A DNA stretch of 28,869 nt from Bacteroidales bacterium (GTDB taxonomy: Bacteria > Bacteroidota > Bacteroidia > Bacteroidales > UBA10428), in the NCBI GenBank assembly GCA_016926235.1, contig JAFGOZ010000217.1, positions 1 to 28,869 of the forward strand, read 5' to 3'. Both the position numbers and the translations under genes were made by a program. The notes beneath the pieces are model-generated. The model did not search any database, had not been told where the DNA came from, and was given only the letters and a program-made list of their open reading frames with translations. Shown piece by piece: positions 11,202 to 28,779 of the stretch (position 1 is the stretch's first letter; the number at the start of each line of letters is the position of its first letter).

Positions 11202-13028
11202 ATGAAACATAGAGAATATTCATACTGTTTAAGGCTTTTCATAATCATTGGTTTGGTGCAGTTAGGAATAATGGCATCCAAAGCTCAAAGCAAAATTGAT
11301 AGTTTGGAATATGTTTTGGCAAAGGTATATACGGACACAGCATATGCATCTTTGCCATCAATCCTTGACATGCTTGCCGAAGAATACCGTTTTAGAAACC
11401 CTGCAAAAAGCCTTGATTATGCAAATGAGCTCAGGGATGAATCACAGATAAATAATGATCTGAATTATTCTATTCGGGCTTATACACATATTGGTAACAC
11501 TTATAGTGACCTGGGAATTTATTATCTGGCATATGAAAATTATTATAAAGCCCTGGAAATATCAAAAGAATTTGAAGAAAAGGTTAAAATAGCCACTATT
11601 ATTAATGCTATTGGGAATATAAATTATTTGCAGGGACTAAATGATCTTGCACTCGATCATTTTAACCAGGCTTTGGCAGTATTTACTGATTCTGAAGAGA
11701 CAAAACTAAATAATGCACAGCTTGAAGCAATTGCTGGTACTTATTCTAATATTGCCTGGGTTTTTTCGAACAACAATGAATTGGATACTGCAAAGTACCT
11801 TCTGAATAAAGCATTGGATATTAGAAAAAGTATTGGAGATGTGGATAAAATTGGATACTCCTTCATGGAGTTGGGGCATATTGAGATGAGTCAAAATAAA
11901 GATGAAGCAATTACTCTGTTAGAACAAGCCATTAGTTTATTTGAAATTGTAAATGATAATTATAATATTGGGAAATGCCATAAATTTATTGGAGACGTGT
12001 GGTATTTTAAAGAAAATTATGAAAATGCATTGGATAATTATCAAAGGGCACTTGAAATATTTTTGAATGAGGGCAACAGGTTTGAAGTTGTGAATTTGCT
12101 TACTCTTATAAGCAGGTTGTATTTGGGACAGGGCAGGCTGGATGAGGCAAAAAGTATGGCAAACAGGGTACTGGAATTATCAATAAAAAGTAATTTTCTG
12201 ATTCAGCAAAGAGATAATTATAAACTGCTTTCAGAGATATATACTCAGAAAAAAGATTATAAGACGGCATTGGATAATTTTAAGAATTATGCATCACTCT
12301 TGGATTCTATTTATAGTAAGCAGGTAATTCAAACACTTACCAGAATAGAAGTCCTGAACGAAACTGAAATAAGGGAAAGAGAGATAGCTATTCAAAAACT
12401 ATTGCTGTCACGCAAGAATTTCATGTTGATTACCCTTATATCCATAGTCTTTTTAATGGGCATGTTCGTATATTTTTTAGTACGCCGACATGAATTAATA
12501 AAAAAGACATCAAAAGTTATCCAGGAACAGCAGCATAAGATCTATGCCCAACAAAAGTTGATCATGGAGCAGAATGAGGAAAATTTGAAGAAAGAATTGG
12601 CTTTCAAAAATCAGGAAGTCACCTATAAAACGATGAACCTGCTCCAAAGCAACGAGTATTACCTAAAGCTGGTCGAAACTTTGAAAGTGGCGAATAAAGA
12701 GAATAACAATCCCGATATAGAGGATATCATCCGTTCATTGAATGCAAAGATTAAAACAGAAAGCAGTGAAAAAACATGGCAGGAATTTGAGATACTCTTT
12801 ATGCAATTGCACCAGGACTTCTTCGCACGTTTGAATAAAGAATATCCAGATTTAACTACAAATGAAAAACGTTTGTGTTCATTCTTACGATTGAATATGA
12901 CTACAAAGGATATATCTACAATAACCGGGCAGACGATTCGGAGTATAGAAATTGCACGAACCAGGTTACGGAAAAAATTAAATCTGAAACAGGAAGAAAA
13001 CCTGGTTAGTTTTATACTCTCACTATAA
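11202..13028 (+). CDS. TPR-containing membrane regulator with C-terminal LuxR-like HTH
   Basis: A 608-residue protein of a type common in Bacteroidota. It has a cleavable-looking signal peptide (about 1-29, ending MASKAQS). Tetratricopeptide repeats follow at about 45-385, with phrases such as IGNTYSDLGIYYLAYENYYKALEIS. There is one transmembrane helix (about 406-428), a charged coiled-coil stretch (about 430-490), and a C-terminal helix-turn-helix (about 550-605). The last contains LTTNEKRLCSFLRLNMTTKD and ISTITGQTIRSIEIARTRLR, which resemble LuxR/GerE-like DNA-binding domains. It probably senses something in the periplasm through the TPRs and acts on transcription from the membrane. It lies between pntB and the giant surface gene on the same strand, 374 nt before the latter. 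Control of the surface locus is plausible from position only. Confidence 0.75.
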   Translation: MKHREYSYCLRLFIIIGLVQLGIMASKAQSKIDSLEYVLAKVYTDTAYASLPSILDMLAEEYRFRNPAKSLDYANELRDESQINNDLNYSIRAYTHIGNTYSDLGIYYLAYENYYKALEISKEFEEKVKIATIINAIGNINYLQGLNDLALDHFNQALAVFTDSEETKLNNAQLEAIAGTYSNIAWVFSNNNELDTAKYLLNKALDIRKSIGDVDKIGYSFMELGHIEMSQNKDEAITLLEQAISLFEIVNDNYNIGKCHKFIGDVWYFKENYENALDNYQRALEIFLNEGNRFEVVNLLTLISRLYLGQGRLDEAKSMANRVLELSIKSNFLIQQRDNYKLLSEIYTQKKDYKTALDNFKNYASLLDSIYSKQVIQTLTRIEVLNETEIREREIAIQKLLLSRKNFMLITLISIVFLMGMFVYFLVRRHELIKKTSKVIQEQQHKIYAQQKLIMEQNEENLKKELAFKNQEVTYKTMNLLQSNEYYLKLVETLKVANKENNNPDIEDIIRSLNAKIKTESSEKTWQEFEILFMQLHQDFFARLNKEYPDLTTNEKRLCSFLRLNMTTKDISTITGQTIRSIEIARTRLRKKLNLKQEENLVSFILSL

Positions 13029-13402: not shown

Positions 13403-16400
13403 ATGGTTGCTTGCTTAAATTGTTTATTTTACCTAAATTTAATAGAAGGATTTACTTACCTGGGATTTGCCAGGAAAGGGAGATTGAGGTGTTTGGGAAT
13501 TGAATTGAAATTGAATTTGGATAGGAGCTTGTCACATAGAATTTTTTTCATAATTCTCCTGATACTGCATTTTGCAGGAGGGGGATTTTTATATTCACAG
13601 GATGGGCCTGGTGGAGTAGGGTCAAATAACGGAAGTTCTGAGCTTACTTTATGGCTTAGAGCTGATAAAAACGTATCCTACGATGCTACCAAAACCATTA
13701 GTGCATGGTCGGATTATAGTGGTTATGGCAATAATTTATCAAGTAGTGCGGAGGCTCCTTCTTTCCTGAGTAATACATTGAATTCACTACCGGTTGTATA
13801 TTTTTCCACTAATGCAATGGGTCTGGAAAGAAGTAATGTTACGGGAAGTGATATATTTTCAGCAGGTACAGGAACAGTATTATGTGTGCTTCGATCTGTT
13901 TCAGGAAATACATTCTTCAACTGGCAAAATACAACCTCTAATAAAGTTGGCCTCGGGCTTTCTTCCGGGGCAGTTCAATTTGACTATCCAAATACTGTTG
14001 CCGGAACCCTAACCGGTACGACTTCTATTATAAGCTCCTATCATTTTATCTCTGCCCTTAAAACGGCTGCCAACCAATATGTTTATGTAGACGGTGATCA
14101 GGATGCCACGCAGGCAAATGCCCTTTCATTGAATACGGCTGTTGACAGCACCTTCTATTTGGGATCGTACAATGCAACCACTTCAAACGGTTGGATTGGA
14201 TATATGGCCGAGTTAATCATTTTCAACACGGAATTAAACTCTGCCGAAAGGGCAATTGTTGAGAATTACCTTAGCGCGAAGTATGCTTTAGCCTTTACTA
14301 CTTCAGGTAATGATTTATATAACGGGGATGCCCCGACTTATAATTACGATTGCTATGTTGTAGGTATTGGAAATGAAAGTGATGGTAACCATACTCTTTC
14401 AAACTCTTCAGGATTTCGCATTAGTGAACAGGGAGGTTCCCTTGGAGTTGGAGAGTATGTGTTTGCAGGTCATAATAATTCTTCAAATACTGTTGTTACA
14501 ACTGACCTTCCGGGGGGCGTACAGCAACGCTGGTCGAAAGACTGGTATGTTGATGTAACTGAGACAGATGGCGTTAATTTGCGTATATCTTTTGATTTTA
14601 GTGAAGGTATTGATGGCGGTACTCCGGGTGATATTTCTGATTATGCCCTGCTATATCGTTCGGGTACATCCGGTAATTATACAGTAGTTACACCTACCGG
14701 TAGCAGCATTGAAAATACAGATCAGGTTTACTTCAATGTGTCCGTTGACGATGGCGATGACGGATTTTATACCCTGGGAACACAGGATATGACAAACAGT
14801 CCCCTGATTGGAGGTCAGACATGGTACACGTATATCACAAACGACTGGAATACATATACAACCTGGACATTGGATCCTGATGGATCACAGCTGATAAACC
14901 CCTATCAACAAGTTCCTGGGGCAGCAGATACTGCTATTGTATTAAATGGTACATTTGTAAATATTGATGCAGACAATGCGACAACTGCAAAGATCGAAAT
15001 TAGAGGAGGGGGAATTGTTACTATTGACGGAACAACTTCAGGACATGATTTTGGAGAAATAATTGGTAGTGGACGAATTCAACTCGAAGAAGACAATTTC
15101 CCGGCTGGCGATACCAGTGATTTTATAACAAGAGGTACTGTTGAGTATATTGGGGGTTCTGATATTACAGTTACGGAAGGCAGAGCATATTATAATTTAA
15201 TAATAAACCTGGACGATGCGAATGATGCGGTTATTTTTACCGACTCGATAATCGTAAATAATGACCTTACAATCCAGAAAGGGGAATTTCAGATAAACGG
15301 GGATGGGACATCATATGATGATGTGGTTTTAACAGTAACGGTTCTTGGAAATATTAGCGTTCAATCAAATGGAAAAATTACGGTGGGAACTGGTAATCCG
15401 ATTGATGCTGCAGGCTATGAAATAGACGGTACTTCTTCCACATTACCTGATGTGATGGGGGATTATCATAAAATGTACCATCAGCTTTATGCATATGGAG
15501 ATATTACCAATAACGGTACTATTCAATTAACCAACCAGTCTCAACCTGATTATATTGATTTCACTGCCACCGGAGCTGTTTCCCTGTATATGATGAATGC
15601 TTCAAACAATACTTTTAATATTTATGGTATTACAAACCTTTATAATTTCATTATAGATAAAGGTACAGACAGAACCTATATATTAACTATATATTCTTCA
15701 AATAGCAGCTATTTTGCTTTATACGGACCTAATGTAATAAGCCGTTTTACTGATCATTTTGTGGCCCCGTTTAATGAGGGCGATTTTGAAATCCGCAAAG
15801 CGCTGTGGATATACCATGGAACCTTAAAACTTACCGGAAATATATTTATCCCGACCCTGAATGAACGGGAGGTATCAGGTGCTTCGTATGATGATACGCA
15901 GCCAACCGATGCTTTGTATTCCGATTTTTGTATTGGCGCCAGCGGGGCTTTATGGATAGCAGGCGACAATGTGAAAGTATCAACAACTGCTGTTACAGGT
16001 GATGTCACTGCAACCGGGATAATTAATACTACTGGTTCACAGGCTTTAGGTCTTAGTGGAAGATTAAGAGTTACAGCAGGTACATTTACATCACGAAATT
16101 CCGGGGGTATATATTATTGGCCGGGTTATTCAGGGGAATTGATTTTAGAAGGAGGTACTATAACCCTTTCCCAGTTAAGAAATACTGGCTATGGTACCGG
16201 CAGGTTTTCATATATCCAGTCAGGAGGTGACTTAATTATCAGGGGTGATGAACCTGTTGGAGATGAAACCAGTGGTGGAGAATATAGCAATGGATACGGG
16301 CTTTTTAACCTGAACAATGGCGATTGTGTGTTCCAGATGTCCGGAGGGGATATTTATATTTATGATAATAATGGGGATGATGAGTTTGACGTGCTCTCGG

Positions 16401-19400
16401 ATGAAGGGAACTATTCCGTAACAGGAGGTAAAGTAACCATGACCCATAATGGCGGGCAAACTGCCAGTATTTATTCCACAGCTAATCTTTGGGATTTGGA
16501 TATTATAAGTGCGAATAGTACTGGTACTTATGAGGTGAACCTTACCACAGATTTAACTGTATCGAATGATCTTTTTATTGATGATTATACTACTTTGGAT
16601 GTTGATAATGGAGGCAGTAATAGTTTAAATATCGGTGGAGATTTAACTATGGGATCGACTGCTGGGACTAATAATGCAGCCTTAACATCGATAGCCTCAA
16701 CTATAAATTTTATCGGGTCAGGAAATTCATTGTTGAATATTACTAATACTGGTAATGCTGATGTCTTTCATGTATTAAATTTAACAATAAACAAGAATAA
16801 CTCTTCTAATTATCTAAGTATTAGAAGCCCTGGAAGAACCGTAAATCCACCTGTAGAAGTAGATAATTTATTGACTGTCTCTGAGGGTATTTTTGATTAT
16901 GGACCATTTCATATGGAAGTAAATGGTGGATTGACCAATGCAGGGATTATGGGTACTGATACGGCTTCTGGGTATATTGAATTAACAGGCAGTAATGCAC
17001 AGTATACGGTTACAACCTCTTCATCGGGTAATCCTTCTTATGGACATATATATTTCAATGATGGGGATGTTGGTGATGAAATGTTACTGGTAAATAATGC
17101 CCGTTTTAAGCAATTAACGATTTATGATGGAGAGATATATATTGATGAATATCTTTTAACAATTGACACCAACCAAGTCATTAATGGTAATCCTGGTGTT
17201 GGGTTTCAAACGGGTAAGATGATTAAGCTATCTGGTGATCATGGAGCAAGAGGGATAAAATTGAATCTCGCTGGGAGTTATACTTCAACATCAAGTATTG
17301 TGTATCCCATAGGAACTGAAGGTGCTACAGATTATTATTCTCCACTGGTGATAACTTTCTCAGGTAATGAAGATATAACAACTGGTTTTATGACTACAAG
17401 AGTTGTAAACAGAGAACATCCAGCCTCTTCAAATAATGTTTATGATAACTATTGGGATACCTATCTTTCTGATGATTTTTCAGTGAGTCCTAATACAAAT
17501 GTTACATACAATTTTTATTCAGGTCTAACATCAAATACAGGTAATGAACAGTATAAATTAACTACTACTTGGATAAACGGTGACGCAACCAGCATTTCTT
17601 CTATTGATCCATTGGATTTTTCTTTAAATTTCGTTACAGGTACTTTTACTGCTGGAACTAACGGATTCTTTAACTCAACAAAAATATTCAATTCCATACA
17701 GACTGGGCCATGGGGTGTAAATAGCACCTGGGATAATAATCCGAGTCCGGGGATAACTGATATTGCGATTATACATACGGGACATACGGTTACTATGGGT
17801 ATGAATCATGATGTTGGAGATTTAACTATAGAAGAAGGAGGAGTTTTAGATATTGTAAGTACTACAGGACATACGATGTATACAGTTAGCGGTTCCGGAA
17901 GAATCAGGATTTCAACAACAACTATCCCAACAGGTAACTTTGATGGTTTTTTAAATAATGATACTGCAATCTGGGAGTATTATGGCACAACCAATTATAC
18001 CATCCCAAATCCTGCTAACTTACCTTATTATCCCAATCTTCTTATTACAGGTTCAAATGGTAAAACCTTACCCAATACAGATTTATTGGTACGTAAAAAT
18101 CTGTACATAGATGGTGAAACAGTTACTGCCAATGCAAATGATGATATTGATGTATACGATAGTGTTATCTTCGACAATGCCGGTATTCTGCGTTTTCCCA
18201 GTACCGGTACCTGTGCTTTAATGGTTGGGAAAACCATAGACATGTCTGGCAGTTCATCGGCCAATACTATCGATGAGAATACCGGGGGAACACCTGGCAC
18301 ATCTCATTCTATCATCCTTGAAGAAGATATCGTGATGAATGATAATGCAGTTATTGATTTATATGGAGGGACAAGAAAAATCAACTTGTATTTCCGGGGC
18401 GATGGAAACTCACAAATAACAAGTTCAGCAGCCACGATTGCATTTAATAACCTTTACATAGAAAAGGACACACTTACTGATACTGTTACTATTAGCAATG
18501 ATTTTACACTTACAGATGATACAGACAGGGCATTGCACCTTACTTCCGGAACCCTTATCCTGGATAATTCCAATATCGATATTTCCCTTACTTCCGGAGA
18601 TGGAGATTTTACTATACCTTCTGCAGGAGAACTGATACTCAGGAATGCCACCTGTAATGTATCAGGGGCATCTACAGGCATATTGTTATATGGCAAACTG
18701 ACACTGGAAAACAGCAGCGAGATGTTGATGAACGATGGTACTAATGAGAACTATATAGAATATAAATCAACCGGGCACTCTGAGATTAATATATCTGATA
18801 ATGCAGTCCTGAATGTAGGTTCACAGATCAGACGGGGGACTATTATGACCGGAGGGGCGCTGAATTATGTCCAAACCGGTGGTACCTTAATAGTAGGTAA
18901 TAATAATGCAGCCCAGACCTCAAGGGCAATGCTTGAAGTACTTAATTCGGGTAGTAATTTTACCTTTACCGGGGGTGATATTTATATTGCAAGGGCTCAA
19001 TCAACCACTTCTCCAGCACTTTATCTTGATCCGGCTACTTCAACCCTTTCATCAGGGCAGACTATAACATTCGGAAATGCTAATACTCCTGCAAGTCAAA
19101 GTATGGGTATCTATTCAGCTATTGACTTACCAAATATTGCGTTAAGTAATGCAGGAGGAAACAATCCTGAAGTTAAGCTTTATTCACTTGCATTAACAAT
19201 TGATACTCTGACGATTGGAAGTGGTACGGGTTTCAGGGCTGATGGCATTGACCTTTCACTTAATGGGGACTTCGTAAATTCCGGTAATTTTTATCATGAT
19301 AATAATATAACAAGTTTTGTTGGAACAGTAAAGCAAAATATTGTTGGAACAACTGCATTCTATGATTTAACTGTAAACAAATCAGATACCCTTGAATTGA

Positions 19401-22333
19401 GTAGTTCAACCGATATTACTGTGGCAGGTGATTTAACCCTTTCTTCAGGAGTGCTGGATGATAATGAAAATAGTATTAACGTTGCCGGTGGTATAACCAA
19501 CTCCTCTGTACATTATAGTCCAAGTTCAAGCGCAGGTGGAATTGTTTGTAATGGTGCATCCAGGCAGGAACTTTATGGTACAGGGACTTTTGGACGGTTT
19601 GAGATCAGCAATCCTTCAGATGCAGCGATGAATAATAACATTACCCTTAATAATTCATTAATACTTACAAATGGCAGCCTGGTTGTCCGGACTCATTTAT
19701 TAACTCTTGGAGCTGATATTCAGCTTTCCGGAACATTTAGTGAAAATAATATGATTATCACCAATGGCGCTGTTAGCGACAATGGAATAAAACGTATGGT
19801 GAACGCTGGAGAGTATTCTTCATTCTTCTTCCCGGTAGGTGTTCCAGGCAAGTATACACCTGTTGAATATATTATTGATACGAACACAATAGCAGGTTCA
19901 ATTACGGTTATTCCTGTTAATAATGTGCATCCAACAGCAACAAGCCCTGATGATGCATTACAATATTACTGGAGAGTAATAAATTCCGGCTTGGGAGGTT
20001 TTACGGGTGTGGTAAACTTTAACTATTTGCAGGAAGATGTATCTGTTACTTCCACAAATCTGGAATCAGACTATATTCCGGCCAGGTTGATCAGCTCGTT
20101 CTGGTCAAAATTTGGCCCGGAAGATGTGGATGATGTGAATAACATCATTGAATTTAACTTTTCCGGCACAGGCGATATTTCAGGAGATTATACCTGCGCT
20201 ATCGATACAGCATTGCCTGATACCGTGCCTGTTTTTACCACGGTAAAAGACGGTGACTGGGACGATGAAAACGTATGGTTCCGGACTGGTGAAATAAATC
20301 CGGGGGACAATGTCCCCGAAAATGGTCCGGATGGCCAGATAGTAGTTATAAATGACAGCATCTATACAAATGGTAACTTAAGGTCTGCATACAGGACTAC
20401 AATTAACCAAGCAGGGAAATTGTATATTGGCACAACGCTGGGACATTATCTCGGGGATGTTGATGGAAGTGGCACCATCCAACTTGATTTTGGAAGACTT
20501 CCTGCCGGACGGTATGAGGATTTCTTTGATTGCAGTGGAGGTACAATTGAATATAGTGGTACAGGAAATTACTACATCTCTGATGAGGGCTCAACGATAA
20601 GGAGATTGATTTTAAGCGGAACAGGAAAACGGATATTCCCTTTACTTGATTTTACCATATGTGATACGTTAAGTATAAGGGGAGCTACTCTCGATAATAC
20701 ATATAATAATGACCAGATAACGATTAATGGTTATCTGGAACGTATTTCAGGAGGTTCATTCCTTAGTGGAACCAGTTCTAATGCACGTTTTGTATTTAGT
20801 GGCAGTGCAGAACAGACCATTGAAGGAAGTTTTACAGGAAATAATGCATTCAACCGTGTAACTTTAAATAATACATCAACAGGGGTAACGTTGAATGATA
20901 CGATTGAGATTCAATCCGTTCTTACACTTACGGATGGAACCATTAATACAACAGATGATAATATTGTATATCTGCCAAATACAGCAAGTGTTTCGCCATC
21001 AGGAGGTTCTTCAGCGTCCTTTATAAATGGTCCTTTGCTTGTCGACCTGGATAATGGCTTTGATTATAACTGGCCTATTGGTGAAGGCACCCGGTTTGGC
21101 CAAATGGGTACACTCGGCATAAGCACTTCAGGAACACAGGGATGGAAAGCCGAATATGTATACGGGAATCCGCATGATGATGGATATGACACTTCCCAAT
21201 ATGATGGAAGTATAGCTGCTGTAAGCCATATGGAATACTGGAAAGTTACAGGCCCTGCAGGTACTGCTGATGTAAGGGTAAGATGGGATGCAACCAGCGA
21301 TATGAATGGATTATCTGTAGGTGATATAAATGATATCGTAATAGCTCAATGGAATGGAACTTTATGGACTGAAGTCGGATCGGATGTTTCAGGAACCGAT
21401 ATTAATGGCACTGTGTCAACCGAGGATGCCACGGCTCCAACTTTTACAGCGGGCCAGGACACTGTATTTACACTTGCTTCTTATGTTTTGCCGGGACCGA
21501 CAGCAGTGATAACCAGTACAGATTTTTATTTGTGTACGAACGAAGCAGGATATATTACCATTGAACTTACCGGAGACCAGCCCTGGTATGTTATTTATGA
21601 AATAAACGGGGCCAATCGTGATACTACTCCTGCAATTGCATCAACACCTTATTTATTGCCTGTTACCGATACAGGTACATATACATTGGCAGGGGTTTGG
21701 GATGCCAATGATCCTTCCGGTGTAACTTCGGGATCATGCCATGTGCAATATTATACCCCTCCCGATGTTGATATTGAGAATGATGATCCGGATGCAAATA
21801 ATATAATATGTGAGGGTGATACTTTAACATTTACTGCAAATGTAATTTCAGGAGTTGTAATTAATTATGAATTTATTCTGGAAGGTGTTGGAACTTTACA
21901 GAGTGGTAGTGAATCAACGTATTCCACAGCAACGCTTACTGACGGTGATGGTGTTTTTGTTGTTGCTACTTCAGATGATGGCTGTTACGATACCAGTAGT
22001 ACGAATTATATTACGGTAAATCCCTATCCGACACCCTTAATCACAGGAGACAGTACAGTTTGTGAGGGTTATACGATAGCCTATACAACACCAAATACGG
22101 GTAATACATTTGTATGGACAATTACGAACGGGTCCCTTATTTCTGATGACGGATTGGGTAATATTATAGTTCAATGGGATGCAGTGGCAGTTCCTTCAGC
22201 TTCGGTTACCGGATATGTTGAGGTTGAAGAAACGATGACAGGTTGTTCAACTAATGATACGCATCAAATAACAATATACAGAAGGCCGAATACTGGTCCC
22301 AATTATCATATACCTAATCCCTGGAGTGAATAA
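13403..22333 (+). CDS. Giant secreted modular surface protein (2976 codons)
   Basis: An uninterrupted 8.9-kb gene for a Ser/Thr/Asn/Gly-rich secreted protein, probably an adhesin or fibre subunit. From the first ATG, the first ~40 residues look non-native. A hydrophobic signal segment lies at about 46-65 (IFFIILLILHFAGGGFLYSQ), so the true start may be a later TTG. Domains: LamG/concanavalin-like (about 78-297); a conserved segment (about 316-465, VVGIGNESDG and RISEQG); then three large super-modules starting near 477, 1432 and 2279. Each opens with a W-rich segment and the pattern GSGxIxL...P.G...DF..GT.EYxG, continues in parallel-beta-helix-like repeats, and closes with a Y..PIG sandwich-like piece (about 1285, 2142, 2553). 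Ig-like domains fill about 2715-2955. It ends in RPNTGPNYHIPNPWSE, shared with the next gene. No type A or B T9SS sorting domain is visible, so its route out and anchoring are inferred to depend on the neighbouring genes. Confidence 0.85.
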   Translation: MVACLNCLFYLNLIEGFTYLGFARKGRLRCLGIELKLNLDRSLSHRIFFIILLILHFAGGGFLYSQDGPGGVGSNNGSSELTLWLRADKNVSYDATKTISAWSDYSGYGNNLSSSAEAPSFLSNTLNSLPVVYFSTNAMGLERSNVTGSDIFSAGTGTVLCVLRSVSGNTFFNWQNTTSNKVGLGLSSGAVQFDYPNTVAGTLTGTTSIISSYHFISALKTAANQYVYVDGDQDATQANALSLNTAVDSTFYLGSYNATTSNGWIGYMAELIIFNTELNSAERAIVENYLSAKYALAFTTSGNDLYNGDAPTYNYDCYVVGIGNESDGNHTLSNSSGFRISEQGGSLGVGEYVFAGHNNSSNTVVTTDLPGGVQQRWSKDWYVDVTETDGVNLRISFDFSEGIDGGTPGDISDYALLYRSGTSGNYTVVTPTGSSIENTDQVYFNVSVDDGDDGFYTLGTQDMTNSPLIGGQTWYTYITNDWNTYTTWTLDPDGSQLINPYQQVPGAADTAIVLNGTFVNIDADNATTAKIEIRGGGIVTIDGTTSGHDFGEIIGSGRIQLEEDNFPAGDTSDFITRGTVEYIGGSDITVTEGRAYYNLIINLDDANDAVIFTDSIIVNNDLTIQKGEFQINGDGTSYDDVVLTVTVLGNISVQSNGKITVGTGNPIDAAGYEIDGTSSTLPDVMGDYHKMYHQLYAYGDITNNGTIQLTNQSQPDYIDFTATGAVSLYMMNASNNTFNIYGITNLYNFIIDKGTDRTYILTIYSSNSSYFALYGPNVISRFTDHFVAPFNEGDFEIRKALWIYHGTLKLTGNIFIPTLNEREVSGASYDDTQPTDALYSDFCIGASGALWIAGDNVKVSTTAVTGDVTATGIINTTGSQALGLSGRLRVTAGTFTSRNSGGIYYWPGYSGELILEGGTITLSQLRNTGYGTGRFSYIQSGGDLIIRGDEPVGDETSGGEYSNGYGLFNLNNGDCVFQMSGGDIYIYDNNGDDEFDVLSDEGNYSVTGGKVTMTHNGGQTASIYSTANLWDLDIISANSTGTYEVNLTTDLTVSNDLFIDDYTTLDVDNGGSNSLNIGGDLTMGSTAGTNNAALTSIASTINFIGSGNSLLNITNTGNADVFHVLNLTINKNNSSNYLSIRSPGRTVNPPVEVDNLLTVSEGIFDYGPFHMEVNGGLTNAGIMGTDTASGYIELTGSNAQYTVTTSSSGNPSYGHIYFNDGDVGDEMLLVNNARFKQLTIYDGEIYIDEYLLTIDTNQVINGNPGVGFQTGKMIKLSGDHGARGIKLNLAGSYTSTSSIVYPIGTEGATDYYSPLVITFSGNEDITTGFMTTRVVNREHPASSNNVYDNYWDTYLSDDFSVSPNTNVTYNFYSGLTSNTGNEQYKLTTTWINGDATSISSIDPLDFSLNFVTGTFTAGTNGFFNSTKIFNSIQTGPWGVNSTWDNNPSPGITDIAIIHTGHTVTMGMNHDVGDLTIEEGGVLDIVSTTGHTMYTVSGSGRIRISTTTIPTGNFDGFLNNDTAIWEYYGTTNYTIPNPANLPYYPNLLITGSNGKTLPNTDLLVRKNLYIDGETVTANANDDIDVYDSVIFDNAGILRFPSTGTCALMVGKTIDMSGSSSANTIDENTGGTPGTSHSIILEEDIVMNDNAVIDLYGGTRKINLYFRGDGNSQITSSAATIAFNNLYIEKDTLTDTVTISNDFTLTDDTDRALHLTSGTLILDNSNIDISLTSGDGDFTIPSAGELILRNATCNVSGASTGILLYGKLTLENSSEMLMNDGTNENYIEYKSTGHSEINISDNAVLNVGSQIRRGTIMTGGALNYVQTGGTLIVGNNNAAQTSRAMLEVLNSGSNFTFTGGDIYIARAQSTTSPALYLDPATSTLSSGQTITFGNANTPASQSMGIYSAIDLPNIALSNAGGNNPEVKLYSLALTIDTLTIGSGTGFRADGIDLSLNGDFVNSGNFYHDNNITSFVGTVKQNIVGTTAFYDLTVNKSDTLELSSSTDITVAGDLTLSSGVLDDNENSINVAGGITNSSVHYSPSSSAGGIVCNGASRQELYGTGTFGRFEISNPSDAAMNNNITLNNSLILTNGSLVVRTHLLTLGADIQLSGTFSENNMIITNGAVSDNGIKRMVNAGEYSSFFFPVGVPGKYTPVEYIIDTNTIAGSITVIPVNNVHPTATSPDDALQYYWRVINSGLGGFTGVVNFNYLQEDVSVTSTNLESDYIPARLISSFWSKFGPEDVDDVNNIIEFNFSGTGDISGDYTCAIDTALPDTVPVFTTVKDGDWDDENVWFRTGEINPGDNVPENGPDGQIVVINDSIYTNGNLRSAYRTTINQAGKLYIGTTLGHYLGDVDGSGTIQLDFGRLPAGRYEDFFDCSGGTIEYSGTGNYYISDEGSTIRRLILSGTGKRIFPLLDFTICDTLSIRGATLDNTYNNDQITINGYLERISGGSFLSGTSSNARFVFSGSAEQTIEGSFTGNNAFNRVTLNNTSTGVTLNDTIEIQSVLTLTDGTINTTDDNIVYLPNTASVSPSGGSSASFINGPLLVDLDNGFDYNWPIGEGTRFGQMGTLGISTSGTQGWKAEYVYGNPHDDGYDTSQYDGSIAAVSHMEYWKVTGPAGTADVRVRWDATSDMNGLSVGDINDIVIAQWNGTLWTEVGSDVSGTDINGTVSTEDATAPTFTAGQDTVFTLASYVLPGPTAVITSTDFYLCTNEAGYITIELTGDQPWYVIYEINGANRDTTPAIASTPYLLPVTDTGTYTLAGVWDANDPSGVTSGSCHVQYYTPPDVDIENDDPDANNIICEGDTLTFTANVISGVVINYEFILEGVGTLQSGSESTYSTATLTDGDGVFVVATSDDGCYDTSSTNYITVNPYPTPLITGDSTVCEGYTIAYTTPNTGNTFVWTITNGSLISDDGLGNIIVQWDAVAVPSASVTGYVEVEETMTGCSTNDTHQITIYRRPNTGPNYHIPNPWSE

Positions 22334-22756
22334 TAGACACGAATGAAGAATAATAAAACATATAAAATCAGTATCAACATTGCCTATTCAATGTTCCTTA
22401 AATCAGGTGCATTGGAGAGTTTACAAAAATCCCTTGATAAGGGGGAAAAAGTTCTTTGGGGCAGGGCAGGGCCTGATGCCTGGACTGGCTTGCCCCCACC
22501 TGGATAGAGTTGTGAAAATAAAGTATAAAAAGTAAAAAAAATAAATGTATGACGAAGGACGAAAGATGCATGACGCTGAGAGGATTGTGGGACAATGAGA
22601 TGAGAGCGTGGATTAGTTTATACTACAACGCCCCTCTCAATACCCACTACCCAACGTCAATCATCAATCGTCAATCGTCAAACAATACAATCCATATCAA
22701 AGAATTACAAGAATTAATTATAAATAACAATTTGTTTAACCTTAATTTTTAAGATT
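22334..22756. other. Intergenic region with dispersed-repeat fragments
   Basis: 423 nt with no convincing gene. It holds a CCCTT-GAT-AAGGG hairpin (22431-22443), then a GC-rich stretch closed by GGGGCA (22458-22463) and TGCCCC (22491-22496). Short word repeats include GACGAAGGACGAAAGATGCA and TCAATCGTCAATCGTCA. Such scraps are common between Bacteroidota genes. The gap separates the giant gene from the next secreted gene, which may therefore have its own promoter, although no TAnnTTTG match was found. Confidence 0.6.
22431..22496. repeat. Hairpin-containing repeat fragment
   Basis: The perfect stem CCCTT/AAGGG (loop GAT) is followed within 15 nt by a longer GC-rich inverted repeat (GGGGCA...TGCCCC). 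On the minus strand the first stem is followed by ATTTTTG. There is no minus-strand gene to terminate here, so a dispersed repeat is more likely than a terminator. Confidence 0.4.
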
Positions 22757-23734
22757 ATGAAAACGAAAAACATCTTTAAAGTGTTGTTAACCTTGGCGAT
22801 AGCTTTGGTTGTGAATGTAAGCCTTATGGCTCAGTATCCACCTTCTCCTTTTGCGTTGTATGATGCAAATGAAACGGTACCAACTGCAATTGACTCTGCT
22901 ACAACTGGTATGACCTTACCATACTATGTTTTGCCAGATGCCTATTATCATCCTAACTATGTAGCATTAGGTCAGCTAACCACTGGATTTCAATGGGACT
23001 GGGAAATAAGTACCAACCCCGGTGGCGCTGCTATAGTTGGTGCAGCTGATACTGCCAACTATGTTGAAGTAACATGGGGTGCAGCTGGTGATTATGTACT
23101 TCGTGTTTCTGAAGTTGCCCCTGCTGCATATGGCGGTTGTGACGGAGATACTACTATAATGAATGTAACCGTATTGCCTGTTCCAACTTTGGGATTTGAA
23201 CCAACAGCAATCGGCTCTTATATTGGTGACAGTATCCAGGTTTGTGAAGGTGATGCACAGTTGACTGATATTGTAACAGTTAACATCACAGGTATTACAC
23301 CGTTTAATTTGATCTGGGATTTTGAGATTGCAACAATGGATGCAACCAATACGAAAGACGAATGGTTTGATACAGATAAAACAACAAACTATGGAGTTCA
23401 AACCTATGCTGTTGAATACACAGCTGCTGCACCGGACTCAGTTACAACAACTGCCTATGACTTGCAAAGACCAGATGACGGAGTTTATGATTGTATTGGA
23501 GGGAAAACCACTGTTTATACATACAGTATTACTGGTGTTAACGGAAGGATTTCCCGTAAATCAGACTATCTGATTAATACTTCTGGCGCTAATGCCGGTT
23601 TTAACTACTGGGATTACCTGGCTGCAAATAATGTAGGAGCAGCAGGTAACACAGCTGATGGTGTTGAAATCATCGTTAACCCAAGACCGGATACCGGACC
23701 TATCTATCATATACCTAACAACTGGGCAGAATAA
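22757..23734 (+). CDS. Secreted Ig-like protein with RPxTGPxYHIPN C-terminal motif
   Basis: A 325-residue secreted protein with a clear signal peptide (MKTKNIFKVLLTLAIALVVN, cleavage near LMAQ, residue 26). The mature protein appears to hold two Ig/PKD-like beta-sandwich domains. The first has FQWDWEIS, then VEVTWG, GDYVLRVSE and GGCDGDT. The second follows the cysteine phrase VCEGDAQLTDIVTVNITG. It ends in RPDTGPIYHIPNNWAE, almost identical to the end of the giant upstream protein. It has no visible T9SS sorting domain. Small size and simple architecture would suit a repeating structural subunit, but that is inference. It stands alone between two long non-coding gaps (423 and 687 nt), so its expression may differ from its neighbours. 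Family not recognised beyond the Ig-like fold. Confidence 0.8.
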   Translation: MKTKNIFKVLLTLAIALVVNVSLMAQYPPSPFALYDANETVPTAIDSATTGMTLPYYVLPDAYYHPNYVALGQLTTGFQWDWEISTNPGGAAIVGAADTANYVEVTWGAAGDYVLRVSEVAPAAYGGCDGDTTIMNVTVLPVPTLGFEPTAIGSYIGDSIQVCEGDAQLTDIVTVNITGITPFNLIWDFEIATMDATNTKDEWFDTDKTTNYGVQTYAVEYTAAAPDSVTTTAYDLQRPDDGVYDCIGGKTTVYTYSITGVNGRISRKSDYLINTSGANAGFNYWDYLAANNVGAAGNTADGVEIIVNPRPDTGPIYHIPNNWAE

Positions 23735-24421
23735 AAATATTCTGTATGCCTTAAAAGGCTGCAATTTCAGCAATGCTGAGGAGGAGCTTAATGGGTAAGG
23801 TATAGATAGATATTAAAGATGTTTGAAACCAGCTTCAGGGATTGGTAAGGTTACAATCCCTGAAGCCTTGGGTTCAAAGCATTGTAAACTCTAAAATTCA
23901 TGGTAGGCGTACCATGAGAGATGTGCCCGGTCCGGTGTTAAATAATGCATGCCAATACTTGTATCAGGTATTGGTTATCCCTTACTTAACATTTGTCGAT
24001 CGGTTTAGATACTTGAGGAAGTCGTTGTTGATTGCCTGGTTAGTAATTCAGGCAAAAGCAATTGGATGGGGTTTATCTTGAAATTAACCGGACTGTAGAC
24101 TTTAATCCATTGTATCCGTTGAGATGCAGGAGGATAAGCTACAGAATAGGGTACGATAGATAAACATATAATGGATTTATAGTTGCGGGTAGTGGGTGAA
24201 AACAGGGTGTTTTGACCCCGACTATCTTACATGCAATGGATTTATTGTATTCTGCCCAAAATGGGTTGGTCCAGACTTCTGAATGTATATATTATATATA
24301 TGTATAACAAATTAGTACAAAATGCAACAAACCATAGCTATGTGGCTAATAACCAATAGTAAATAGCTGGCAGCTGATAGCTGAAAACTATACTAATAGC
24401 TAATGGCTAAATGCGAATAAC
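23735..24421 (+). other. Hairpin-rich intergenic region, candidate structured RNA
   Basis: 687 nt without a convincing gene but with many inverted repeats. GCTTCAGGGATTG/CAATCCCTGAAGC is a perfect 13-bp stem at 23832-23866, extended by outer pairs to 23822-23878. TCATGGTA/TACCATGA lies at 23898-23917, CCAATAC/GTATTGG at 23952-23974 and TTGCCTG/CAGGCAA at 24032-24055. A two-layer stem occupies 24179-24225. AATCCATTG (24104-24112) can pair over a distance with CAATGGATT (24234-24242), enclosing that two-layer stem. The last ~130 nt are AGCT-rich short repeats (TAGCTGGCAGCTGATAGCTG). No U-tract follows the main stem, so it is not a standard terminator. Confidence 0.5.
23822..23878 (+). other. 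Strong long hairpin
   Basis: A perfect 13-bp stem (23832-23844 with 23854-23866, loop GTAAGGTTA) is extended by outer pairs TTTGAAACC/GGTTCAAA with one bulged A. It lies about 90 nt after the stop of the small Ig-like gene. It is the most stable-looking hairpin in the window by eye, and it lacks a trailing T-run. An mRNA 3'-end stabiliser or processing site is a reasonable guess. Confidence 0.6.
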
Positions 24422-25468
24422 ATGGTGCGTAAACACCACATAAAATGGATAGTGACGCTGATACTGGCGCTCATGCTCATGGGGCGGTCATCCGGTCAGG
24501 TAATTGACACGGTATGTCCCGGAGACAGGGGTGTTATGTATGGTGTAACCGGCAGTCCTACATCATTCTTCCACTGGAATGTTGAGGGTGGCCAGATTGT
24601 CCATGATTTTGGTGATACCATCGTAGTAAATTGGGGAACTGACAGGGGGACATATACCATATCTGTAATTGAAGAAAGTCAATACGGATGTTTGGGTACA
24701 GAGCAATTTGCTGATGTAGTAATTTTGGGAGGACCGGATGTGGATATTGGTGTTGATCCGGTATTCTGTCAGGGAGACTCTGAGCTTATTTATGCCTTCG
24801 TAGACGGTAATGTAATTAATTACCAGTGGAGTACAGGAAGTACATCCAGAGAGATTGTTGTTTATTATGCCGGTGAATATTCTATTGAGGTAACTGATGA
24901 TCTTGGTTGTATGGCAAGGGATACTATAGATGTGACAGTAAATCCATTACCTGTATTCAGTGCCGGAATGGACACAACTTTGTGCAGGCTTGAAGGGCTT
25001 GAAATATCGGCGGATAATCCTGATTATATGTATACCTGGACATGTGAGGAATGGGATGCAATTCAAAATGGTCAGTATATTGAGGTATTCCAATCTCATT
25101 ACGACCAGGTGGTTGTAGCTGAGGCTACAGATATAAATAATTGTGTGTCTACAGATACTGTTATTGTTTATCACTGTCCAAACGGATTGTGGGATATAAC
25201 CAACGTATTTTCACCTAACGAGAGTGATAATACAAATAGAACGTGGGAGATTCATGGCTTACAATACTATCCGGAAGCTGAAATTTTGGTGTTCGACAGA
25301 TGGGGAAGATTGGTGTTTAAAGGTTCAGGATTTACCACGGATGATACAGGTTGGGATGGTACGGATCTTGGAGGTAGAAAGCTGCCTATGGATTCATACC
25401 ATTATGTAATCAACTTCAACTCGAAGGATATACCTACTATTACGGGTATTGTAACTATTGTAAGGTAA
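24422..25468 (+). CDS. Ig-like protein with C-terminal gliding/T9SS type B (CHU_C) domain
   Basis: A 348-residue secreted protein. The signal peptide covers about residues 1-26 (WIVTLILALMLMGRSSGQ). Three cysteine-paired Ig-like domains follow: VCPGDRG...YGCLGTEQ, FCQGDSE...LGCMARD and LCRLEGL...NNCVSTD. The last ~90 residues (about 258-348) are the gliding-motility-associated C-terminal domain, with ITNVFSPNESDN, ILVFDRWGRLVFKG, GWDGTDLGGR and YHYVINF. Known proteins with this domain are exported by the type IX system and attached to the cell surface, often with a PorP/SprF-like partner; SprB/SprF of Flavobacterium johnsoniae is the reference case. Such a partner follows here after 16 nt. 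The first Ig domain resembles the last Ig domain of the giant protein and the first of the small one. Likely the anchor or cap of this surface structure. Confidence 0.88.
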   Translation: MVRKHHIKWIVTLILALMLMGRSSGQVIDTVCPGDRGVMYGVTGSPTSFFHWNVEGGQIVHDFGDTIVVNWGTDRGTYTISVIEESQYGCLGTEQFADVVILGGPDVDIGVDPVFCQGDSELIYAFVDGNVINYQWSTGSTSREIVVYYAGEYSIEVTDDLGCMARDTIDVTVNPLPVFSAGMDTTLCRLEGLEISADNPDYMYTWTCEEWDAIQNGQYIEVFQSHYDQVVVAEATDINNCVSTDTVIVYHCPNGLWDITNVFSPNESDNTNRTWEIHGLQYYPEAEILVFDRWGRLVFKGSGFTTDDTGWDGTDLGGRKLPMDSYHYVINFNSKDIPTITGIVTIVR

Positions 25469-25484
25469 TTTAATACAAATAATT

Positions 25485-26534
25485 ATGGAAACAACAATAA
25501 ATAAAAGACCTATTCCGGGGAGATATCCCGGCCAGGTATTTTGGTTGTTTTTCGCATTTATCCTATTGATCTTTATTTTGAATGTAAACGCGCAGATGAC
25601 ACCCTTATTTAGTCAATATACAATGAATGGGTATTTGATTAACCCTGCTATGGCAGGTAGTGAAGGATATACTGCGATAAGCCTTGTTGCACGGGAACAA
25701 TGGATAGGTATGGGGAGTTATAACCAAACACCCAAAATGCAAGCCTTAAGTGCAGAAACAAGGGTGCTGAAGAATAGTTTTATTGCACGGACTCTTTCAA
25801 TAAAGAAAAGAAGGCGTAGAGGATCTAGTAGTGGCAGGGTTGGTTTGGGCACTTATCTGTTTAATGATAAGAATGGACATATAGACAGGTTGGGGATGAA
25901 TTTAACTTATGCTTATCATATTAATTTCAGATATGCACAACTGTCTTTTGGGTTATCGGGTATGTTTTATCAATATAATGTGAACAAGGCTGCATTTATT
26001 CCGTATTCTTCTGATGATATGTTTTTGCAAAGTCTGGATAAAGCATATTTTATGCCAGATGCTACCTTTGGTGTGTATTATCGAAATCCGCAAGTTTATG
26101 CCGGTTTGTCGGCAAACCAGCTTTTTGAAACCAATTTGTACTATCTCTTTGTGGATGATAATTTTCAATATCATCAGGCTGAACGCAATTATATGCTGTT
26201 AGCAGGTTATCAATATGAATTACCAGCCGTAAGAGAAATGACTTTTGAACCGTCTGTACTTATTAAATCGAATGACTATTTCAATTTTCAACTCGATATA
26301 AATACCAAACTTTATTTACGAAAAACTTATTTTACAGGGGTGTCGTACCGAACCGGTAATTATGGTTCCTTTGTTGTGATGAGTGGATTGAAAATTTCGG
26401 ATTTTTATTTTAGTTACTCCTACGATTATAATTTTGGTACAATTCGAAAATTCACCTATGGTTCGCATGAAATTGTTGCAACCTATAAATTTGGAGATAA
26501 TGCCCGTCGATACAGGTGGTTGAACAGGTATTAG
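25485..26534 (+). CDS. PorP/SprF family type IX secretion membrane protein
   Basis: A 349-residue outer-membrane protein of the PorP/SprF family. The N-terminus has a hydrophobic export signal (about 20-37) ending NVNAQ. The family opening follows: TPLFSQYTMNGYLINPAMAG. Alternating aromatic/polar strands run to the end, consistent with a beta-barrel (YFTGVSYRTGNYGSFVVMSG, FYFSYSYDYNFGTIRKFTYG). PorP/SprF proteins work with T9SS cargo bearing type B C-terminal domains; in F. johnsoniae SprF is needed for surface delivery of SprB. The preceding gene encodes exactly such a cargo 16 nt upstream, so the pair is one operon and probably a dedicated cargo-anchor set. Stop at 26532-26534; no clear terminator follows. 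Confidence 0.88.
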   Translation: METTINKRPIPGRYPGQVFWLFFAFILLIFILNVNAQMTPLFSQYTMNGYLINPAMAGSEGYTAISLVAREQWIGMGSYNQTPKMQALSAETRVLKNSFIARTLSIKKRRRRGSSSGRVGLGTYLFNDKNGHIDRLGMNLTYAYHINFRYAQLSFGLSGMFYQYNVNKAAFIPYSSDDMFLQSLDKAYFMPDATFGVYYRNPQVYAGLSANQLFETNLYYLFVDDNFQYHQAERNYMLLAGYQYELPAVREMTFEPSVLIKSNDYFNFQLDINTKLYLRKTYFTGVSYRTGNYGSFVVMSGLKISDFYFSYSYDYNFGTIRKFTYGSHEIVATYKFGDNARRYRWLNRY

Positions 26535-27101: not shown

Positions 27102-27503
27102 ATGGATCAAGCCAACAAATCTAACCGATACTTATACAACCCACAACTAACTTACAGAGCAAAAAAATTAAGAAGAAAAGCCACACAAGCTGAAACTTTA
27201 ATGTGGAAATGTGTTTTACGCAATAAGATTATGGGCTGCAAATTTTATCGACAACGGCCTGTATTAAATTATATTGCTGATTTTATGTGCAAGGAACTAA
27301 TGTTAATAATTGAAGTAGACGGTATCACTCATCTTTATGAGGAAACAATAAAGAGAGATAAGGTGAGACAAAAAAGATTAGAAGATGCAGGTTTTAAATT
27401 TCTTAGATTTGAAGATTCAATGGTTATAAATAATTTGGCGCTAACCCAATCTGTAGTTGAACAGGAAATTAAAGCAATTGAAAGTGAAATGGGCATTAAG
27501 TAA
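27102..27503 (+). CDS. DUF559 (Vsr-like) endonuclease-fold protein
   Basis: A 133-residue basic protein of the DUF559 family, related in fold to very-short-patch-repair (Vsr) and PD-(D/E)XK nucleases. Visible family features: AKKLRRKATQAETLMWKCVL near the N-terminus (E31); FYRQRPVLNYIADFMC (R50, D60); LIIEVDGITH (E71, D73, H77); then DKVRQKRLEDAGFKFLRF (R89, R102). D60, E71 and D73 are the likely metal/catalytic residues. At 133 residues it is about normal for the family. The biological substrate of these small proteins is not established. It is closely bracketed by two direct copies of a palindrome-ended repeat, the right one starting 12 nt after its stop. That suggests it moves with, or acts on, those repeats. 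Confidence 0.8.
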   Translation: MDQANKSNRYLYNPQLTYRAKKLRRKATQAETLMWKCVLRNKIMGCKFYRQRPVLNYIADFMCKELMLIIEVDGITHLYEETIKRDKVRQKRLEDAGFKFLRFEDSMVINNLALTQSVVEQEIKAIESEMGIK

Positions 27504-27876: not shown

Positions 27877-28779
27877 TTAAAACTTTAAATACTTTGGCGT
27901 AGGCATGGTCTGATTTACTTTATGAATTTGATAAGTATATTCTTCCTTATTTATAATATCGCCATTCTCATTGTAATCCGAGCGTTCTACAACATAACCA
28001 TCCCTGTAAAGTTCAATTCTTCTTATATGAATTTTTTTTATAGTTACATCTTTAGTGATCTTTCGCAGATAACCTTTCGGGTTATATTCCCACTGTTCCT
28101 GCATCTTTTGTGTTATTCCATCAGGGGTTTTTTCAATTCGTGATGCGGATATTATTCTGTTCTTATCATCATATACCGGCTTTATCTTATACATCAGGTA
28201 ATCGCAAGGCACGGTTGGTTCTGCTTTTTTACATTTAAACGAAATGATAGTGCCTTTCTCATCATACTTATACTTTTTTGTATACGCTTTACCTCCATTA
28301 ATATATTTTCCTGATTCCATGATTAATTTCCCGTTTTCATCATAAGTAAAAGTCTCGTTCATAAAAGGATATAACTCATCATTTTCATTTACTTTAAATT
28401 GTTCACTTCCAAGCTTTTGTCCATCTGTATTGTATTGGTATTTAACTGCCACTACCAGTCTGTCCGATGCGTCATAACGTTCTTCCCCGGTAAGAATTTT
28501 GCTATTATAAAAATACCATGAATAATAAATAATAGCAGATGGTTTATTTGAAAAACCTACAAGACGTATCAATAGATCATCTTTGGTATATGTTTGTTGT
28601 TCTTTTACATATTTTACTTTTGTTATTATTCCATCATTTTTTTCATATTTATACCAGTTTATTACCTTGAATTCATTTTTTTGAGAATATGTTTTTTGAT
28701 ATATCAGTGATACTGATATAATTAGAAAGAGTAAATATCTTTTGTATTCAAAATTGAGCATTCTTTTATTTAATATCAT
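27877..28779 (-). CDS. Secreted protein with YD-like repeats, function unknown
   Basis: A 300-residue exported protein. A hydrophobic signal segment (RYLLFLIISVSLIYQKTYSQ) precedes the mature part. M7 (28761) is an equally good start to the first ATG. The body is a series of short beta-hairpin units of the YD/MORN-like type, with phrases such as FTYDENGKLIMESGKYINGG, YKYDEKGTIIS, WEYNPKGYLRKI and SDYNENGDIINKEEYTY. Similar repeats occur in Rhs-type wall proteins and in many unassigned Bacteroidota lipoproteins and secreted proteins. There are too few units here for an Rhs shell. No catalytic motif, lipobox or T9SS sorting domain was seen. It is convergent with the DUF559 gene and flanked by repeats on both sides; function not recognised. 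Confidence 0.7.
   Translation of the reverse strand: MILNKRMLNFEYKRYLLFLIISVSLIYQKTYSQKNEFKVINWYKYEKNDGIITKVKYVKEQQTYTKDDLLIRLVGFSNKPSAIIYYSWYFYNSKILTGEERYDASDRLVVAVKYQYNTDGQKLGSEQFKVNENDELYPFMNETFTYDENGKLIMESGKYINGGKAYTKKYKYDEKGTIISFKCKKAEPTVPCDYLMYKIKPVYDDKNRIISASRIEKTPDGITQKMQEQWEYNPKGYLRKITKDVTIKKIHIRRIELYRDGYVVERSDYNENGDIINKEEYTYQIHKVNQTMPTPKYLKF

Follow-up and report, generated by a model that had tools for sequence, protein, structure and literature searches.

A shared C-terminal peptide of presumably secreted Bacteroidales proteins as a candidate donated strand for an immunoglobulin-like domain of a putative type IX secretion anchor

In chaperone-usher pili an incomplete immunoglobulin (Ig) fold is completed by a strand from another subunit, the donor being N-terminal and a chaperone and an usher taking part, and in type V pili (FimA/Mfa1) a subunit donates a strand from its C-terminus, which takes over the position vacated when the first strand is removed. 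The LPXTG sortase signal consists of that motif followed by a transmembrane helix and basic residues. For type V pili, strand exchange between subunits is described in PMC7616799; according to PMC12618676 and PMC9143113, type-B C-terminal domains (CTDs) of the type IX secretion system (T9SS) with a cognate PorP/SprF protein secrete and place their own proteins; and in Tat hitchhiking (PMC4273604) the subunits of PaoABC cross the membrane in complex with a partner. Here we analyse a 28,869-nucleotide stretch of a Bacteroidales bacterium (GTDB lineage UBA10428; assembly GCA_016926235.1, contig JAFGOZ010000217.1), referred to throughout as the window, in which two proteins, one very long (the giant) and one small, end in a similar peptide (the tail) and are followed by genes for a CHU_C-bearing protein and a PorP/SprF-family protein (Table 1).

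The initial annotation described the tail as an identical peptide at the extreme C-termini of two unrelated secreted proteins. Each tail does end exactly at its stop codon and the tail is conserved, but "identical" was an overstatement, as the two agree at 12 of 16 positions; "unrelated" was slightly too strong, in that the proteins are different but have Ig/PKD-like domains in common and are not wholly unrelated. Translating the whole window in six frames shows no further combination of TGP.Y with HIPN. The absence of a T9SS sorting domain from both proteins and its presence on the next gene product held up: neither Por_Secre_tail (PF18962) nor CHU_C (PF13585/TIGR04131) was found in the giant or the small protein with Pfam (E up to 0.1), no NCBIfam family of any kind matched either (E up to 1), and the protein encoded by the next gene matches CHU_C (E 1.8e-17) and TIGR04131 (E 7.6e-16). 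The giant has weak Ig_7 and POM152-Ig matches; the small protein matches no Pfam or NCBIfam family at those thresholds, no PDB sequence up to E 10 and nothing in a plasmid collection at E 1e-5. The giant probably starts about 42 codons downstream of position 13403, because the database prediction (P0181) has 2934 residues, and a signal peptide is seen by eye at that start. By sequence, the two genes after the small one encode a T9SS type-B substrate and a neighbouring PorP/SprF protein, presumably its cognate carrier.

We propose, from sequence comparison and structure prediction, that the tail is a donated β-strand filling an Ig domain of the CHU_C protein, which would act as an anchor for CTD-less proteins; we give this reading a probability of roughly 0.58. 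Immediately behind its signal peptide the anchor would have an Ig/PKD-like domain that is missing the first (A) strand; that strand would come from the final ~15 residues of the small protein, giving one Ig domain shared by two polypeptides, and giants and other tail proteins might donate a strand likewise. The CHU_C domain of the partner would be the sole T9SS signal of the complex and would hand it to the PorP/SprF-like outer-membrane protein. Because the CHU_C domain is the only secretion signal, display of the tail proteins, and probably their export, would run by way of CHU_C and PorP/SprF; these proteins would thus be attached to the cell surface, and we infer further that they may leave through the T9SS while bound to the CHU_C partner. 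The small protein of the cassette may be a default occupant of the socket that is exchanged for a client, or an obligate partner with clients bound elsewhere. The broader idea of a plug-and-socket branch of the T9SS, in which one CHU_C/PorP anchor exports and displays many proteins without secretion domains by means of a ~15-residue strand completing a split Ig domain, is advanced tentatively and we hold it to be somewhat doubtful.

A protein search defined a family of 60 small proteins including that of the window (59 relatives, 27–100% identity), and the tail is the C-terminal end in all 60; candidates were gathered through shared 5-residue words, and tail-less relatives are perhaps under-represented in this count. 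Their signal peptides have an ordinary Sec-type appearance, often ending in AQ (by eye). P311, T313 and H318 are invariant across the 60 aligned rows, and information content is 3.6 bits per residue over 14 tail positions, compared with a mean of 1.8 in the mature body, with the best-scoring stretches of the protein located there; judged by sequence, the likeness of the two window tails is not due to chance. The tail directly follows the last strand of the small protein, as would be expected of an ordinary structural C-terminus that closes the final Ig domain of the same polypeptide in cis and owes its conservation to folding alone. We consider this very improbable: the tail is more conserved than the body, it is found on different proteins (giants, a 467-residue protein at L070 and a 1062-residue protein at L079), and its variants run in parallel between different proteins within a genome.

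A scan of genome contigs returned 38 related loci, of which 29 are titled Bacteroidales, eight have other Bacteroidota titles and one belongs to a named species, Perlabentimonas gracilis (Bacteroidales, Tenuifilaceae). The suspected linkage to CHU_C and PorP/SprF genes was borne out at these small-gene loci, the small gene being followed by a CHU_C gene in 37 of the 38 and a PorP/SprF gene being present in 35. At L033, which has neither, and at L030, which has no PorP gene, the contig or stretch ends there; L036 has a CHU_C gene and no PorP gene in view, and at L004 the PorP gene is ~5 kb away. The upstream tail-bearing giant of the window has a counterpart, whole or as a contig-cut end, in 18 of the 38 loci, a count that takes in the variant tails of L001, L004 and L006. 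Three proteins around the single CHU_C gene of L036 end in TEPIYHF, TGPIYHY and TGPIYH, and one of them has an IgGFc-binding domain (PF17517).

Some loci have additional features. PorP/SprF genes occur as tandem pairs at L018:9176–11199 and L034:2331–4533, and the CHU_C proteins of L018 and L034 are without the usual first cysteine (VHAG vs xCxG). At L133:7552–10689 two small-family proteins in tandem precede CHU_C, the second with an aberrant tail, NTQPIKHIQNIGW. A ~415–450-residue TPR protein (an assignment from Pfam runs on two of them) ending GCxDxxxAxxxG..YC is present downstream of PorP in many loci (e.g. L007:8379–9722 and L001:14289–15536).

An order-wide sample of 295 genomes yielded 36 TGPxYHI matches, spread over 22 genomes, where the reversed pattern yielded 11; 28 of the 36 are C-terminal, located 3–6 residues before the stop on secreted-looking proteins; the 28 fall in 15 genomes, every one of which has the small and CHU_C gene pair. 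A motif that is mostly internal or unlinked, which the initial annotation took as the outcome telling against its proposal, is thus not what was found. The other matches are one internal (L093, in a 1007-residue open frame) and seven in no frame or in a 33-residue one (L107). A phylum-wide sample of 395 genomes gave, outside the centre genome, seven matches, where the reversed control gave 18: two internal (L118, L121), one ending a 42-residue frame (L120) and four in no frame of at least 30 residues. We therefore see no phylum-wide spread in this sample, the matches being at chance level with none ending a protein longer than 42 residues, and conclude that, as far as sampled, the tail belongs to part of the Bacteroidales. 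Internal occurrences (L081, in a 533-residue protein, L093, L118 and L121), wrong-frame matches and L107 were likewise set aside as being at chance level. These counts refer to TGPxYHI alone (TGxxYHI in the 38 genomes); variants such as PGPxHHI or YHL are known only from loci already identified.

When the TGxxYHI pattern was searched in the 38 genomes, 32 stretches were fetched and their frames read; 19 have a tail protein but no CHU_C or PorP gene in view, five are cassettes and eight have no tail protein. Clients outside the cassette are mostly ~3000-residue proteins, often on other contigs, although shorter ones have 521 (L073), 544 (L086), 467 (L070, TGPLYHI) and 1062 residues (L079, TGPFYHI). 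The client at L123 (TGSIYHI) has at least 3252 residues and is ~54 kb from the cassette, those at L085 and L086 are on the contig of the cassette roughly 10 kb upstream, and L124 represents two long tail proteins in one genome. No CTD was found by Pfam in five clients, which gave Ig_7, PKD_6, G8, weaker matches or none; the secreted status of tail proteins is judged from signal peptides by eye, and many of the fetched giants are cut at the start.

Long proteins that share part of the last 277 residues of the giant usually end differently, with a CTD (Por_Secre_tail or CHU_C, precomputed) in 31 of the 36 listed; P0205, one of the five listed without a CTD, ends in a variant tail. This search scored the 7986 candidates with the most shared words, in a limited length range, and returned P0205 alone as a tail giant from another locus; because the other tail giants are absent from the matches listed, the figure describes the usual end of such Ig chains and not that of the nearest orthologues. 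The tail stands where most of these proteins have a CTD, it is portable to several kinds of protein, and SprA_N, a domain of the T9SS translocon, is present in 18 of the 19 tail genomes examined for it, the exception being G017. All this would suit a tail that acts directly as a novel and very short signal for T9SS sorting or processing, in addition to the type A and B CTDs; it could be recognised by the translocon, by a PorP-like shuttle or by a sortase-like enzyme, with CHU_C a co-transported neighbour. The CTD comparison and the SprA_N count also accord with the donated-strand reading. A direct signal would not need the small and CHU_C pair, and yet the order scan shows the pair in all 15 genomes with C-terminal tails; known CTDs span ~85 positions; and the two models described below, from which PorP is left out, put the small tail on the CHU_C protein. 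We regard a direct signal as unlikely.

Tails also vary together within genomes. At L016 and L017 the giant and small tails alike read YHL, not YHI; genome G131 has GNNIAK and GNNISK at the ends of two long proteins and NNNIAK at that of the small one; and in G001 a PGPxHHIPND variant is common to two clients and not to the small protein. The second of the G001 clients, L001:16649–18145 (−), ends PAPGPVHHIPND, the same variant as in the giant of the locus (PEPGPAHHIPND...). For the residues after YH, within-genome agreement is 3.29 positions, compared with 2.25 ± 0.13 after shuffling (32 genomes, 0 of 20000). With shuffling limited to genomes whose CHU_C proteins are linked at 45% or 50% identity, the expected values are 2.62 ± 0.13 (0 of 10000) and 2.93 ± 0.11 (9 of 10000) respectively; because these restricted shuffles raise the expectation yet leave it below 3.29, the agreement is partly shared descent and partly not. 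A first permutation with hand-typed tails from 31 genomes, without L070, G036 and G037, gave 3.36 versus 2.39 ± 0.13 and agrees with the script-read 32-genome version, which includes L070 and G036, omits G037 and counts the extra G001 client (PGPVHHIPND). The agreement fits one common receptor, and would suit any such receptor, including the reader of a direct signal.

The donated-strand reading draws on a comparison of domain ends. Internal homologues of the first Ig domain of the CHU_C protein begin VxVNPxPxPxI[ST]GxxxVCxG, the tail is VxVNPxPxTGPIYHIPN-stop, and the CHU_C sequences take up the pattern from about Q-x5-C onwards, such that the tail looks like the missing linker and A strand of this first domain (Ig1). 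Between the presumed signal peptide and the cysteine the CHU_C proteins have ~5 residues (exactly five in 21 of 37, range 1–11, by a heuristic count in which 2 of the 37 were not assigned); in 39 of 41 internal domains the cysteine is separated from the P.P linker by 11–14 residues. The Pfam PKD_6 profile covers the CHU_C N-terminus from profile position 12–14 on in five of seven proteins scanned, a point that is weak because the match to an internal domain of L069 likewise begins at position 11. Joining the tail to the CHU_C N-terminus gave a mean gain of 2.6 bits against a profile of 41 internal domains (32 pairs, with loci lacking one of the genes, L018 and L034 left out), and giant tails gave +2.0 (18 cases), shuffled tails +0.9 and interior segments −0.15. 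The joining test is supportive of a split domain, but weakly so.

AlphaFold models were obtained for two relatives, L002 (model 1) and L031 (model 2). In model 1 the tail block 311–320 has a predicted local distance difference test (pLDDT) score of 93 and YHI forms a strand; 22 of 50 listed structural rows begin at the tail (308–312) and extend into the CHU_C Ig domains, four begin at the mature CHU_C N-terminus, and none begins between them. In model 2 the tail strand is at 599–602, and 17 of 50 listed rows begin at 588–595, four at 670–672 and none between. The tail of the small protein is therefore predicted to be ordered as a strand in place of the first strand of CHU_C Ig1. The structures that match model m858c93a2f94f best are Ig chains from GhpA, the grappling hook protein of Aureispira; type V pili are not among the structural matches listed (VIA-align, Foldseek), although the listing alone does not exclude them or other folds.

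The models also bear on a polymerisation tag, whereby the tail of one small protein enters the N-domain of the next to build a pilus-like fibre with giants at one end and CHU_C at the base. An iterated profile detects a remote likeness between the small and CHU_C N-terminal domains (E 1.6e-27 with the CHU_C protein of the window), and type V pili of the same order, with the strand exchange noted above, are built by C-terminal donor strands; however, the aligned ranges of both models pair the tail with the CHU_C Ig domain and not with the small N-domain in the same chain. The small N-domain has ~20–25 residues before a conserved TxGTT, versus ~5 in the CHU_C proteins (by eye), and so does not look cut short. 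We think such a fibre quite improbable. Of the roles first suggested for the tail (sorting, docking or polymerisation), docking through a donated strand is the best supported, still as a prediction, polymerisation has gained no positive support, and direct sorting is unlikely.

Several observations weigh against the donated-strand reading. Docking is read from strand assignment, pLDDT and the first and last aligned residues rather than from coordinates or inter-chain error. Each model is an artificial single chain in which the stops separating adjacent genes are read through, a design that favours contact, and the small protein was modelled only as part of these joined chains. The end of the tail in model 1 is less certain (pLDDT 60 for block 321–330). 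Modelling the tail with the CHU_C Ig domains, as had been proposed at the outset, predicts the small tail as a strand in the Ig domain but leaves the giant's tail disordered: in model 2 it has a pLDDT of 35 (block 91–100) and docks on neither the small protein nor CHU_C, but with only five alignment rows covering it this says little for or against docking of giant tails. PKD_6 matched five of the seven CHU_C proteins, and the gain from joining is small, with joined pairs beating 89.5% of controls and all 40 controls being beaten in 5 of 32 pairs. Finally, 59 of 60 small proteins have I immediately ahead of YH, a position at which giants mostly have Q/E/N/A/S, which may reflect two sockets or different affinities.

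Table 1. Genes and tails of the cassette in the window
Feature	Position	Strand	Description
Giant protein	13403–22333	+	2976 codons; Ig/PKD-like domains near end; no T9SS CTD
C-terminal tail of giant, RPNTGPNYHIPNPWSE	22283–22330 (stop 22331–22333)	+	Client-type tail, N before YH
Small tail protein	22757–23734	+	325 residues; signal peptide (by eye), Ig-like strands, tail
C-terminal tail of small protein, RPDTGPIYHIPNNWAE	23684–23731	+	TGPIYHI class; stop codon directly after
Putative anchor, type-B (CHU_C) T9SS substrate	24422–25468	+	First Ig domain ~24497–24751; CHU_C domain residues 258–346
PorP/SprF-family outer-membrane protein	25485–26534	+	PF11751 E 2e-62; TIGR03519 E 1.1e-65

Upstream of the cassette the window contains mostly housekeeping enzyme genes, plus a 608-residue TPR protein (11202–13028) directly upstream of the giant. 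The 687-base gap between the small and CHU_C genes (23735–24421) exceeds that of most relatives, and a comparable gap at L022 contains a second TGPIYHIPNNFNY end in a broken frame. Downstream, a DUF559 (endonuclease-like) gene for a protein of 133 residues is present at 27102–27503, and a protein of ~300 residues near the cassette is encoded at 27877–28779 (−), with counterparts at L001:13398–14264, L018:5811–6716 and L025:1692–2582; some copies are RHS/YD-repeat-like (weak Pfam matches), and it is possibly a further member of the system.

T9SS substrates are now recognised by their own CTD, and tail proteins would therefore be missed by CTD-based prediction of secretomes. If the donated-strand reading is correct, surface proteins of ~3000 residues would be T9SS clients in trans, the T9SS could handle multi-subunit or split substrates, and many proteins would share one export signal and one anchor; there would be a second use of strand donation in Bacteroidales besides type V pili, and a short peptide tag for displaying proteins through one anchor. 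The initial annotation did not recognise the peptide as a described signal, and we likewise found no description of it (as YHIPN, TGPIYHI, PIYHIPN or TGPQYHI) in the literature searched, which omits most subscription papers and preprints; within the same literature, nothing on such tails was seen among the matches listed under donor strands, SprB complexes, co-secretion or T9SS hitchhiking.

The locus resembles several described systems in part. PxTG near the C-terminus recalls the LPXTG signal, but a sortase reading was rejected, as no hydrophobic segment or basic tail follows the motif, and the residues after YHI, usually 3–8, leave no room for a helix. Tat hitchhiking concerns the inner membrane and unrelated machinery, and hitchhiking here would be by analogy. 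With chaperone-usher pili the likeness would be an Ig domain completed in trans; their donor is N-terminal, and their proteins and export route are unrelated. Strand exchange between subunits (PMC7616799) is what the locus may have in common with the type V pili of Bacteroidales. The small protein has no Pfam match that would place it among pilins or fimbrillins. Pilus subunits are made as lipoprotein precursors and lose their first strand to protease cleavage, whereas here the signal peptides look Sec-type by eye, the putative CHU_C socket looks short from the start, and giants and other proteins share one tail. The likeness to T9SS type-B and PorP/SprF systems is the neighbouring CHU_C/PorP gene pair of the cassette; each secreted protein studied in those systems (PMC12618676, PMC9143113) has its own CTD, whereas here the small protein and the giant have none and carry instead a tail of ~15 residues.

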